A stretch of 64,000 nt of DNA from Phycisphaerae bacterium (lineage in GTDB: Bacteria > Planctomycetota > Phycisphaerae > Sedimentisphaerales > Anaerohalosphaeraceae). Positions 2 to 4,594 of the stretch are shown in pieces. Below the pieces are notes generated by a model. The model had not been told where the DNA came from. It did not search any database and worked only from the letters and a program-made list of their open reading frames with translations. A program made the translations under genes and the position numbers. The first letter of the stretch is position 1, and every line of letters begins with the position of its first letter. The stretch spans positions 1 through 64,000 of the forward strand of contig JAGPMT010000009.1 of the NCBI GenBank assembly GCA_018052735.1, written 5' to 3'.

Positions 2-505
2 ACTACAGCAGTAGCACATAAACTTGGCAGAAAATGGCTGGGAGTAGAGATGGGAGAGCATTTTTACAACGTAGTTTTACCAAGAATGAAAAAGGTTTTG
101 GCTTATGATAAATCAGGTATTTCAAAGGAAGTAAAAGAATATCAAGGTGGTGGCTTCTTCAAATACTACGAACTTGAGCAATACGAAGAAGCGGTGGCGA
201 ATTGCAAATACGAAGATACAGATGATATTTTCTTACGCCCAACAAAAAGTCCTTACCAGGAATATGTCTTTATGAAAGACGAAAAAATGCTTAAAGCATT
301 AGAGATTGATTATAAGAATAACAAAGTCAAAGTTGATTTATCAAAACTCTATTCGAATATAGATATTGCCGAAACCTTGTCTAACCTTTCCGGCAAATGG
401 ATTAAGAAAATAAGCGAGGCAGAGGTAGAATTTGAAGACGGAACAAAAATTAATACAATAGATTTGGATTACAAACTTATTAAACCATTAATTTGGTGGG
501 AGTAA
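2..505 (+). CDS. mod: Type III-like DNA methyltransferase (Mod), 3' end only
   Basis: The reading frame is open from the first bases of the window, so this is the C-terminal part of a gene that starts upstream. About 167 residues are visible. The stretch GRKWLGVEMGEHF followed by LPRMKKVL is what I know from the C-terminal end of adenine-specific methyltransferases of type III restriction systems, just after their last catalytic-fold strand. The catalytic DPPY and FxGxG motifs would lie outside the window. It is followed after 6 bases by a nuclease-like gene and then by the matching helicase-nuclease, which supports the assignment. Base composition is AT-rich like its two neighbours and unlike the rest of the window, suggesting a transferred cassette. 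The internal ATG at 50 is not the real start, because conserved sequence continues upstream of it. Confidence 0.8.
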   Translation, partial: TTAVAHKLGRKWLGVEMGEHFYNVVLPRMKKVLAYDKSGISKEVKEYQGGGFFKYYELEQYEEAVANCKYEDTDDIFLRPTKSPYQEYVFMKDEKMLKALEIDYKNNKVKVDLSKLYSNIDIAETLSNLSGKWIKKISEAEVEFEDGTKINTIDLDYKLIKPLIWWE

Positions 506-511
506 AAAATT

Positions 512-1258
512 ATGCCCACACAAAGAAATAAAATAATAAAACAAGTTTATGAGATTTTAGAAAAATCGCCAAAAGGAGTTAGATATGCTGACTTGATAAG
601 AGGTATAAGTACGGATTTACCAGACACAAAGATTAATACTATACATGGCACAGTTTGGGAATTTAAACAAAAAATTGACAAAGGAGAAATTAAAGATGTT
701 ATCAGGCCAGAAAAAGGATTGTATATTCTAAAAAAATATTTTAAAGAAAGGGTAATAGAAGAAACCGAAGGACAAGAAATTGCAGAAGAGGCATTTTATA
801 ATTTATTTGCTGATTATTTAGTCAATGACTTAGAAGAATGCACAAAAGCCGTGCCGTTAGGTGGCAATAAATTTCAAGATAGATGGGGTACTCCTGATGT
901 AATTGGTACTTATAGAGTGTTAGGTATTGGACAAATTCAACCGCCTGTTGAAGTAATTAGTGCAGAAATTAAAACTGATATCAATCAGCTTATTACCTCA
1001 TTTGGACAAGCTTGCTCCTATAAACTCTTTAGCCACAAAGTTTATTTAGTAATTCCCAAGGATGCCCGTGGGGCAGATATTAAAAGAATTGAATCATTGT
1101 GCCTAAAATTTGGCATTGGTTTAATTCTTTTTGATAGAAATAATAAAGAAAATCCCGAATTCGAAATTTTAACGAGGGCAATAAAAAGCGAACCTGATTA
1201 TTTTTATTTAAATAAGTACTTGAGACTTATTGAAGATACAGCAAGAGAATTGTTTTAA
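512..1258 (+). CDS. Winged-helix protein with PD-(D/E)xK nuclease-like core, inside RM cassette
   Basis: This 248-residue protein has no name I can give with certainty. Residues 1-75 look like a HARE-type winged helix (ILEKSPKGVRYADLIRGI, then HGTVWEFKQKIDKG and GLYIL). The C-terminal half contains P128-D129, then E152-x-K154 in VEVISAEIKTD, then QACSY at 166-170. This order of PD, ExK and QxxxY is the layout of the restriction-endonuclease/RecB-like nuclease fold. It lies 6 bases after the methyltransferase and 2 bases before the helicase gene, so the three are surely co-transcribed. A role as an accessory nuclease or DNA-recognition subunit is inference. The alternative is a non-catalytic specificity or regulatory factor related to COG2958-type proteins. 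Confidence 0.6.
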   Translation: MPTQRNKIIKQVYEILEKSPKGVRYADLIRGISTDLPDTKINTIHGTVWEFKQKIDKGEIKDVIRPEKGLYILKKYFKERVIEETEGQEIAEEAFYNLFADYLVNDLEECTKAVPLGGNKFQDRWGTPDVIGTYRVLGIGQIQPPVEVISAEIKTDINQLITSFGQACSYKLFSHKVYLVIPKDARGADIKRIESLCLKFGIGLILFDRNNKENPEFEILTRAIKSEPDYFYLNKYLRLIEDTARELF

Positions 1259-1260
1259 TT

Positions 1261-4221
1261 ATGTCTAAACTTTACTTACAAAATATCATAGACAATATTT
1301 CTTTTGAAAATTTGCCTGCAAAGTGGCAGGGATTTGACTTTGCCCGGTTTTCAAAAGACAAAACGCTTTTTGATTTTCAAAAACAGGGGCTTCAAAACGC
1401 GCTAAAAGCATTGCATTTATACTTCAAGGAAAAAAACGCTGATAAAAAAGCATTGTTTGAACACTATAAACTCAACGGATTAGAAGAAGATTTTGATTAC
1501 AACTTAAAGAAAAAACAAGACAGCAAAACCGCAAAATATCTTTTAGAATACGACAAAGATTATCCTGCCATAGATGAAAAAATTTATTTTGCTCATTTTA
1601 TTAATCGGATGAGTTTTTGGATGGCGACCGGCTCGGGCAAGACGCTGATTATTGTTAAGCTGATTGAACTTTTGGGCAAACTGATTGCCGAAAAGGAATT
1701 GCCCGCAGGAGATATTCTTTTTTTGGCACATCGCGACGATCTTTTGGACCAATTCAAAAACCATATTGAGGAGTTTAACAGTTTTAATTTTGACACAAAG
1801 ATAAATCTTAAAAATCTGCGGGATTACGAAAGCGTCAAGCGCGAAAACGCCTTGCCGTTTGCTAAAAACGAGATTACCGTTTTTTATTACCGCTCTGATT
1901 TGATTTCTGATGAACACAAAGAAAAGATTGTCAATTTCAAAAATTATGACAACGGCGGGCAGTGGTATATCCTTTTGGATGAAGCCCACAAGGGCGACAA
2001 AGAAGACAGCAAACGGCAGATTTTATACTCTATCCTTTCAAGAAACGGATTTTTGTTTAATTTTTCCGCGACCTTTACCGATCCAAGGGATTTTGCAACC
2101 TGCACTTTTAATTTCAATCTTTCAAAGTTTGTAGAAGAAGGATACGGCAAACATATTTATGTGTCTTCTACCGCGATTAGCGCGTTTCGCGGGCATAGCG
2201 ATTTTTCGCCGATTGAAAAACAGAAAATTGTTCTGAAAACGCTTTTGCTTCTGACTTATGTTAACAAATATTTTGAAGAAATCAGGAAAGTTAATAATTC
2301 GCTATACCACCGCCCGCTACTTTTAACGCTTGTTAATTCAGTTGCTGTGGAAGATTCCGACTTGGAATTATTTTTCAGAGAATTGGAAAAGGTTGCGAAA
2401 AATGAAATTAAAGCCGATTTACTTAAAAAAGCAAAAGAGGAACTTGTCCAAGAGTTTCGCGACAACGCGAAATTCGTATTTGAGGAGTTGGAATGTGTCA
2501 TTGACGCTTCCTTGGTTTCAAAATTGGATTACAAAGATATTTTGAAATATGTTTTGAATGCAAAGACGCCGGGCAAGATTGAAGTTTTGAAAATCCCCGG
2601 GAATCGGCAAGAATTGATTTTTAGGTTAATGACGGCTGAAAAGCCGTTTGCCTTAATCAAGATCGGCGATATTTCCGGCTGGCTGAAAGACAAACTTGAG
2701 GCATACGAGATAAACGAAAGTTTTGAGAATGAAAGTTATTTTAAGGCACTCAATCGCGACGATTCCGACATAAATGTTTTAATGGGTTCCCGCTCTTTTT
2801 ACGAGGGCTGGGATTCTAACCGGCCAAACCTGCTTTTGTTTGTGAATATCGGAGTTGGAAGCGACGCTAAAAAATTCGTTCTACAATCGGTTGGGCGGGG
2901 CGTAAGAATAGAACCGCAAAAAAACAGGCGGAAACGGCTCCAAAATTTGCTTAATGCCAAAGTTGTAACAAAGCAATTATTTGAGAAAGTGAAAAATCTG
3001 ATTTTACCGATTGAGAGTTTGTTTGTTTTCGGCACTAACGCCGAAAACCTGAAGGAAATAATTGCAACGCTGAAAGCAGAGAAGCAAGATAAAAATTTGG
3101 GCGACGCATTTATCTTGAATCCCGAAGCGCAAAAACATACTCTTTTAGTGCCGGTTTATAAAACCGCTGAGAGGATTTTTGCCGAGGAAAAAGACCCGCA
3201 AAAATATTCTGTCAGTCGCGAAGATTTTGATATAACCTCGCAATTTTACAGATTTTTAGGCGATAAAATCACTTTGGCTAAATATGATTGCGAAGTAAAG
3301 GTTTTGAAGAAAACAAAAGAAAGTTTTGCTGAAGAAGGACGATATTATGATTTCAGCGAAAGAAACTCGCTCTTTGAGCCGGAGTTAATTCTTGACCGGA
3401 TTTTTGATTATCTCGGTGTTAAAAGCAAGGAGTTTGAGAAATTTAAAGAATTGGAAAACGAAATTGTGCATTTCAAAAAGGTTAGGTTTACTGATGGCGA
3501 AAAATACGAAGAAATATTGAAAGCAATAGGGAAGGTAAAAAACTATCCACAGAAAGCAGTTAAAGAGAAAAAGATTGATAAGGAATTTAAAAAAACGAAC
3601 GATATAGAAAAATATAAAAAGGCAATCAGGCAATTAGAATTAGACTTTCAACCTGAAGTAAAGTATGACAAATTAAAGATCAAGTATTTAGCTAACCACT
3701 ACTATCTTCCTGTGTTAGTTTCAGAGACAGAAAAAATTGACTATATCAATCACATTATAAATGTTGATAGCGAGGTAAAATTTGTTGAGCAACTGGAAGA
3801 ATACCTTGAAAAGCCCGATAATGAATTTACATTTGACTGGTGGATGTTTTCAAAACTTGACCAAACGCTGGACGAGGTTTTTATTCCTTATTACAATCCC
3901 AAAGAAAATAAAATATCCAATTTCAAACCCGATTTTATCTTTTGGGTGCAAAAGGGCAAACGCTACTTGATTTTATTTGTTGATCCTAAAGGAACAGAAC
4001 ATACGGACGGATACAGAAAAATTGACGGCTTTTCAAGGATATTTGAAATTGGCAAACAAAAGCAAAGCAAAGATTTTCCATACAACGGTTTTACAATAAA
4101 TGTAAAACTATTGCTTAAACCGAGGCAAGGGATGCCGGAAGTTTTGGAAAATTACAAACAATACTGGTTTGACAACTTTAATGATTTTGCTGAGAAAATA
4201 AAAGCCGCCCTCACGTTGTGA
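1261..4221 (+). CDS. res: Type III-like restriction enzyme Res subunit (SF2 helicase-nuclease)
   Basis: This 986-residue protein is the ATP-dependent translocase and nuclease of the cassette. Superfamily 2 motifs can be read directly: Walker A ATGSGKT (122-128), DEAH (240-243), SAT (269-271), motif V around GSRSFYEGWD, and motif VI QSVGRGVR (542-549). The C-terminal region carries PDF (890-892) and DPK (908-910) within LILFVDPKG, a PD-(D/E)xK endonuclease signature in its usual place. Length fits the Res family (about 900-1000 residues). In known type III systems Res acts with the Mod methyltransferase and cuts near unmethylated head-to-head sites. The gene is complete with no frameshift and closes the AT-rich island; GC content rises sharply just after its stop. 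Confidence 0.88.
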   Translation: MSKLYLQNIIDNISFENLPAKWQGFDFARFSKDKTLFDFQKQGLQNALKALHLYFKEKNADKKALFEHYKLNGLEEDFDYNLKKKQDSKTAKYLLEYDKDYPAIDEKIYFAHFINRMSFWMATGSGKTLIIVKLIELLGKLIAEKELPAGDILFLAHRDDLLDQFKNHIEEFNSFNFDTKINLKNLRDYESVKRENALPFAKNEITVFYYRSDLISDEHKEKIVNFKNYDNGGQWYILLDEAHKGDKEDSKRQILYSILSRNGFLFNFSATFTDPRDFATCTFNFNLSKFVEEGYGKHIYVSSTAISAFRGHSDFSPIEKQKIVLKTLLLLTYVNKYFEEIRKVNNSLYHRPLLLTLVNSVAVEDSDLELFFRELEKVAKNEIKADLLKKAKEELVQEFRDNAKFVFEELECVIDASLVSKLDYKDILKYVLNAKTPGKIEVLKIPGNRQELIFRLMTAEKPFALIKIGDISGWLKDKLEAYEINESFENESYFKALNRDDSDINVLMGSRSFYEGWDSNRPNLLLFVNIGVGSDAKKFVLQSVGRGVRIEPQKNRRKRLQNLLNAKVVTKQLFEKVKNLILPIESLFVFGTNAENLKEIIATLKAEKQDKNLGDAFILNPEAQKHTLLVPVYKTAERIFAEEKDPQKYSVSREDFDITSQFYRFLGDKITLAKYDCEVKVLKKTKESFAEEGRYYDFSERNSLFEPELILDRIFDYLGVKSKEFEKFKELENEIVHFKKVRFTDGEKYEEILKAIGKVKNYPQKAVKEKKIDKEFKKTNDIEKYKKAIRQLELDFQPEVKYDKLKIKYLANHYYLPVLVSETEKIDYINHIINVDSEVKFVEQLEEYLEKPDNEFTFDWWMFSKLDQTLDEVFIPYYNPKENKISNFKPDFIFWVQKGKRYLILFVDPKGTEHTDGYRKIDGFSRIFEIGKQKQSKDFPYNGFTINVKLLLKPRQGMPEVLENYKQYWFDNFNDFAEKIKAALTL

Positions 4222-4594
4222 TCTGCCCCATTTTTCTGTACCAGTTCTTATGAGAGCATAGCCGATCCGTTCTCTCTGCATTGAAGCTGACGGAGCACAG
4301 CGGAGTCAGGCCCAATGCAGCCGTCGTGCCAAAGGCGAAGGCCCCGGACAAGCCGGAGCCGAAACACGACAAGACGCCGCGTACGCCGCGGGCGTCTGAC
4401 AGCCCTAACTGCTGCGCGGCCGGTGATGGTTATAATCCATTTGCCATCGCTGGGCAATATACAGCCGTTTACGGATGCCCACAACAATCTCACGGGTTGG
4501 GCATTTATTCTCAGCCGTCACAGGCAGCGATTTCTGTGAATGCGGGGAGCAAATCCCGAAAAAGGCGGTCTGAAATAACTCTCGCGCCGATGGG
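4222..4594. other. Gene-free junction after the AT-rich RM island
   Basis: This 373-base stretch lies between the res stop and the end of the VKOR-DsbA gene on the opposite strand. GC content jumps from the AT-rich cassette to the level of the rest of the window within the first few tens of bases. Short open frames exist on both strands (for example 4281-4724 plus and 4248-4493 minus), but they are low-complexity Pro/Arg/Lys translations that resemble nothing I know and overlap one another. I see no tRNA, clear inverted repeat or target-site duplication here. It may contain the island boundary. Confidence 0.5.

Follow-up and report, generated by a model that had tools for sequence, protein, structure and literature searches.

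A predicted PD-(D/E)xK nuclease as exchangeable cargo of type III restriction-modification operons

In this study, we analysed the gene that separates mod from res in a type III restriction-modification (RM) operon at the start of a 64,000-nucleotide stretch of DNA from a Phycisphaerae bacterium (hereafter the window), and found that its product, nuclease X, is exchangeable accessory cargo of RM operons. We further propose, with a confidence slightly better than even, that X is an independent DNA nuclease which adds a second layer of defence to the type III operon in which it is carried.

Operon layout and domain structure of nuclease X

The window starts with the first base of contig C29 in the 2.88-Mb genome, and mod is therefore truncated by the assembly, leaving the C-terminal 167 aa of the type III DNA methyltransferase (2–505, forward strand; PADLOC MTase_III PDLC03638, E 5e-49, profile positions 649–816 of 816). 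The Mod stop codon is followed after 6 bases by the complete 248-aa ORF of X (512–1258, forward strand), whose ATG start is preceded by GGTGGGAG, and X is followed after 2 bases by the 986-aa type III Res (1261–4221, forward strand), a helicase (Pfam ResIII, 7e-20) with its own C-terminal PD...DPK nuclease. The operon thus combines adjacent Mod and Res, a ResIII helicase and a PD...xK motif, as expected for type III RM, the only part of Mod present being its end. An earlier note on this DNA had placed a 248-residue frame between mod and res with gaps of 2 to 6 bases and had assigned Res a nuclease motif of its own; we could confirm the coordinates and the gaps as well as the Res motif, with PD at residues 890–891 and DPK at 908–910. 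Homologues of Res retain Walker A, DEAH and PD..DP(K/H).

For the whole of X, AlphaFold (pLDDT 85) gave a winged helix (residues 1–75), a floppy linker (79–87) and a nuclease domain (residues 91–248), which was modelled with a pLDDT of 93.2 and a pTM of 0.89 when taken alone. The earlier note had suggested comparing the predicted structure with PD-(D/E)xK folds and following the catalytic residues through the family, and both comparisons came out in favour of a nuclease. The model contains the alpha-beta-beta-beta-alpha-beta core, and most of the top-ranked fold matches are PD-(D/E)xK nucleases, led by the nuclease domain of PaqCI (Z 12.7 over 136 aa) and followed by SPO1766 (3dnx, Z 11.3), which is MmcB-like by annotation, and by NucS/EndoMS (Z 8.5), with FokI, AspBHI, MspJI, HindIII, BamHI and Hjc as further matches. 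The residues P128-D129 (codons at 893–898), E152-x-K154 (965–973) and Q166-x3-Y170 (1007–1021, in the helix after the active-site strand; all forward strand) lie exactly where the earlier note had read them, and all 83 of 83 full-length homologues share each of the six residues P128, D129, E152, K154, Q166 and Y170, far beyond chance; mean column identity across the nuclease domain in the family alignment is 68%. The C-terminal half of X is hence confidently predicted to be a PD-(D/E)xK nuclease with an intact D...(D/E)-x-K centre. The invariance of these residues rules out a dead nuclease or a pure regulator as the identity of X, while a homing endonuclease is ruled out by copies at many unrelated sites.

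Searches of Pfam, NCBIfam, PADLOC and the PDB returned no family matching X itself. Pfam and NCBIfam profiles gave no match to MmcB, so that the resemblance to 3dnx is one of fold only, and the sequence homologues found in the PDB were weak Rok matches, all to the winged helix; a PDB match to zinc-finger 268 was rejected as a chance match. Phage records held no homologue of X at E 1e-5 and one meaningless match at E 0.2.

The winged helix (512–736, forward strand) comprises helices at residues 4–17, 25–35 and 41–56 and a wing strand at 70–73, a plain three-helix form. It is matched best by Pfam WH_Rok (E 1.5e-4), a profile that also matched 14 of 50 family members, and the Rok structure 5zuz matches it by profile at E 0.0023. 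The earlier note had called this domain HARE-type. The hallmark of HARE-HTH, according to PMC11037411, is an additional helix within the winged helix-turn-helix fold, and the model of X lacks such a helix. In addition, the HARE-HTH profile found no match in 50 family members at E up to 10, an absence which leaves kinship possible. The HARE assignment is not supported, and the N-terminal half of X is an ordinary winged helix closest to Rok. Stand-alone small proteins matching only this winged helix (E about 1e-17 to 1e-20) were also observed in 16/380 Patescibacteria genomes (L132–L147); where read they are ~74–93 aa long, and the match includes no nuclease part. Likewise, a planctomycete genome contains an 80-aa ORF (L031:7973–8215) consisting of the winged helix only, with 34% identity to X of the window.

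The mod-res gap and the surroundings of the X family

The gap between mod and res behaves as a variable cargo slot (506–1260). With blastn, the match to Mod/Res relatives ends at window positions 499–505 and resumes at 1258–1279, whereas in L032–L034, whose type III pair (Mod PDLC03635, Res PDLC03651) differs from that of the window, the match is confined to 507–1273, the nuclease gene itself. X therefore moves as a gene-sized unit. The order Mod-X-Res recurs in the window, L032, L034, L033 (with an added DUF3800), L040 and L041. L040 and L041 belong to the Mod/Res family of the window; besides X, the gap of L040 contains a 155-aa protein whose N-terminus is hydrophobic, and that of L041 such a 155-aa protein together with an AAA_15 protein and a further one of 156 aa. 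In L035, RhuM-Fic is followed by X and Res, with Mod absent. Within the Mod/Res family of the window itself, the gap is empty in L122 (Res 86% identical), L129, L130, L156 and L161, and is occupied by RhuM-Fic in L128, by Fic plus RhuM-Fic in L123 and by an AAA_14-DUF4143 ATPase in L124. On a Rhodothermus marinus plasmid (NC_015970.1, L162:5551–7004), the gap carries a CD-NTase, which matches the crystallised CdnE (PDB 6e0k) over its full length at E 3e-204, and a 199-aa protein with membrane segments, which by eye looks like a Cap15 effector. Because of the CdnE match and the Cap15-like membrane protein downstream of it, this gap probably holds a CBASS pair. On an Athalassotoga plasmid (NZ_AP019553.1, L161:7780–9006), we additionally observed that an IS256 transposase gene interrupts res in a related type III operon.

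An obligate RM subunit is ruled out as the identity of X, which is absent from five of these loci (L122, L129, L130, L156, L161) and replaced in four (L123, L124, L128, L162). Plain pairs, pairs with other cargo, the swapping of X on its own and the scarcity of RM genes within 1 kb of most copies together identify X as optional cargo rather than a subunit, one that is traded with other defence genes inside an RM operon, as is typical of an RM-embedded accessory defence gene. The mod-res gap thus looks like a bay in which one weapon can be exchanged for another. A search of the open-access literature found nothing on X or on genes carried between the mod and res of type III systems.

X occurs in 13/392 Planctomycetota genomes, the source genome included, and a genome collection yielded 212 X loci, spread over many phyla of bacteria and several groups of archaea, and 80 of these loci were retained for analysis. 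The expectation of the earlier note that X would recur beside mod and res was borne out by the repeated Mod-X-Res order, but most genomes have no RM-like gene within 1 kb of X: most copies have neither a methyltransferase (MTase) motif nor a Res-type helicase at this distance, and their neighbours look housekeeping. The own methyltransferase of a type II system is thus missing from within 1 kb of most copies, and where an MTase does adjoin X, that MTase often has its own nuclease. The RM genes found near X comprise type I HsdR (L068), Eco57I-type enzymes (L019, L084), AlwI (L039), TdeIII with an MTase (L043), a gene matching the REase_II model (L054) and a lone N6/N4 methyltransferase (L046); two MTase_I and one MTase_II, which their motifs assign to L094, L109 and L052, are among the remaining near neighbours, and an HmaA/DrmD-like helicase lies near X in L067. 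X has therefore joined RM loci of types I, II and III repeatedly, and on the maximum-likelihood tree of 83 the RM-neighbour label must change 11 times or more for 16 rows.

ORFs with an MTase motif start 3.4 times more densely within 1 kb of X than at greater distance (11 in 161 kb vs 17 in 855 kb, p = 0.002), and the enrichment stays at p = 0.015 with related type III loci merged and falls to p = 0.07 without type III loci. It should be noted that the near PADLOC tally left out type III loci and RM loci already identified, and that the far neighbour set also held methyltransferases (about 3/134), so that the near and far tallies alone are not clearly separated. From the enrichment p values, the link to RM can be considered real in the type III cassettes, and elsewhere it is suggestive. 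On two contigs from the viral collection, inspection by eye further pointed to an HsdR-like helicase near X (L160) and to an AbiH-like gene (IGNGFDLAHGL) 50 bases downstream of X (L158:6801–7829).

Proposed role and competing readings

The earlier note had offered three roles for X within a three-gene RM variant, namely second cutter, guide or guard. The second nuclease is retained on the strength of the fold and the invariant centre, and so is the recurrent Mod-X-Res arrangement; the gene itself is optional, being replaced or absent in the same family, and the guard ranks low. The most likely role predicted here for X is that of a second cutter which resembles a restriction enzyme and acts independently. 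In the mechanism we propose, the winged helix would bind DNA and bring the nuclease to it, and X would then cut or nick invading DNA that has escaped the RM enzyme already present, presumably acting without being a subunit of Mod-Res. As its weakest step, this mechanism would have X recognise, like type IV enzymes, not a particular sequence but a modification or structure of the DNA. Sequence-specific restriction enzymes are usually far less conserved than the X family, and the strong conservation together with the lack of a travelling MTase makes recognition of modification or structure the more likely mode. The role as second layer draws on the computed fold, the active site kept in 83/83 homologues, the gene-sized swapping and the recurrent placement in RM operons. 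Against it stand the majority of copies, which lie more than 1 kb from any RM gene or known defence gene, the resemblance of the nuclease domain to the repair enzymes MmcB and NucS, which is almost as good as that to PaqCI, the loss of significance of the MTase enrichment outside type III loci and a degree of conservation unusual for restriction enzymes. A broader version, in which the gap is a modular bay swapping whole defence modules and X belongs to an undescribed stand-alone family of modification- or structure-sensing DNA nucleases that occurs in bacteria and archaea and serves many kinds of RM, is put forward more tentatively, at somewhat less than an even chance.

Given the similarity to MmcB and NucS in the modelled fold, the main rival is a nuclease working mainly in DNA repair, MmcB-/NucS-like or Vsr-like at methylated bases, which is spread by gene transfer and sits in RM operons only at times. 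This would fit the matches to 3dnx and NucS/EndoMS, the predominance of copies without an RM gene within 1 kb and the very strong sequence conservation, which extends over bacteria and archaea. It would, however, not readily account for the repeated gain of RM adjacency on the tree, for a slot otherwise used by defence genes, or for a presence within the phylum that is patchy, unlike that of a housekeeping repair enzyme, and the C5-methyltransferase motif that a Vsr-like role would suggest was not found near X. We therefore regard a repair function as unlikely, if clearly worth keeping in mind. A PrrC-like guard, cutting host or foreign DNA when methylation or restriction fails, such that loss of the operon or an anti-restriction protein of a phage kills the cell, appears improbable: X could not depend on a single partner, as it is found with several RM types and mostly with none nearby, and the winged helix is its only candidate sensor domain, even though X does lie inside the operon, Fic/RhuM and CBASS-like suicide modules occupy the same slot in relatives, and PrrC itself sets a precedent (PMC3874165). 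Very improbable in our estimate is a genuine three-gene type III variant with X as a working subunit, which the tight spacing of Mod, X and Res in the window, and their close spacing in relatives, would suggest; same-family pairs that are plain, such as L122, or carry other cargo, the swapping of X alone and the nuclease motif retained by Res all oppose it.

Compatible with any of these functional readings is a further one, which concerns the origin of the cassette. Its GC content is 35% as compared with 54% in the rest of the window, it ends at the contig edge, and the nearest relatives of Mod, X and Res come mostly from Patescibacteria bins; it is therefore either a recent import or an assembly join. 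That a Patescibacteria fragment was joined to a planctomycete contig during assembly is a serious possibility, to which we give a little less than half of our confidence. The cassette lies outside the 47–59% GC range of every other 4-kb stretch, and Res was not found in 381 other sampled Planctomycetota genomes. On the other hand, RM operons are often transferred, the contamination estimate of the genome is 0.5%, and the right border falls exactly at the Res stop codon with a host repeat (4221–4294, beginning at the last base of that codon), as an insertion could produce. An 85% identical copy of this repeat lies at G000:C47:23143, and 58 bp of it at C49; its position coincides with the sharp change from 35% to 54% GC, and it may represent the end of a mobile element. 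If the assembly join is true, the biology of X stands, but not in a planctomycete host.

Significance and comparison with known systems

If the proposed role is correct, the widespread X family, which is unnamed in Pfam, NCBIfam and PADLOC, is a candidate anti-phage enzyme, and the type III RM operon also serves to carry interchangeable defences. At the Rhodothermus marinus locus, an RM operon contains a CdnE cyclase of solved structure. It thereby becomes testable whether RM and abortive infection act together, with restriction coming first and suicide or a second cutter following if restriction fails. Genes embedded in RM operons and winged-helix type IV endonucleases are both of an established kind. 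As far as the open-access literature and the family collections show, three things are new: the X family, the combination in its members of a Rok-like winged helix and a PaqCI/MmcB-like nuclease, and the use of the gap between mod and res in a type III family as an exchange site, in one case with a CBASS-type gene pair.

In fold, the nuclease domain of X is closest to that of the type IIS enzyme PaqCI (PDB 8em1), with which it has in common the D...E-x-K pattern, formed in PaqCI by the catalytic residues D54, E73 and K75 (PMC10201449); identity is only 15%, and PaqCI carries a large C-terminal target recognition domain in place of the N-terminal winged helix of X. SPO1766 resembles X in having a single PD-(D/E)xK domain of the same size, but lacks the winged helix, and sequence similarity between the two is undetectable. 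Like the 6mA-dependent type IV endonucleases, X fuses a winged helix to a nuclease and has no partner methyltransferase. In the passages of PMC11037411 considered, the winged helix of these enzymes is combined with HNH, GIY-YIG, PLD or DpnI-like nucleases; the pairing seen in X is not among these architectures.

Accessory genes inside RM operons that form a second layer of defence are exemplified by PrrC, embedded in the type I EcoprrI operon (PMC3874165), and by RloC and RhuM/Doc (PMC3710099). These target RNA or, by proposal, proteins, whereas X is a predicted DNA nuclease and its operon is of type III. Compared with classical type III systems of the EcoP1/EcoP15 kind, the operon described here has the same Mod and Res with their type III signatures, and differs by the additional gene that lies between them.
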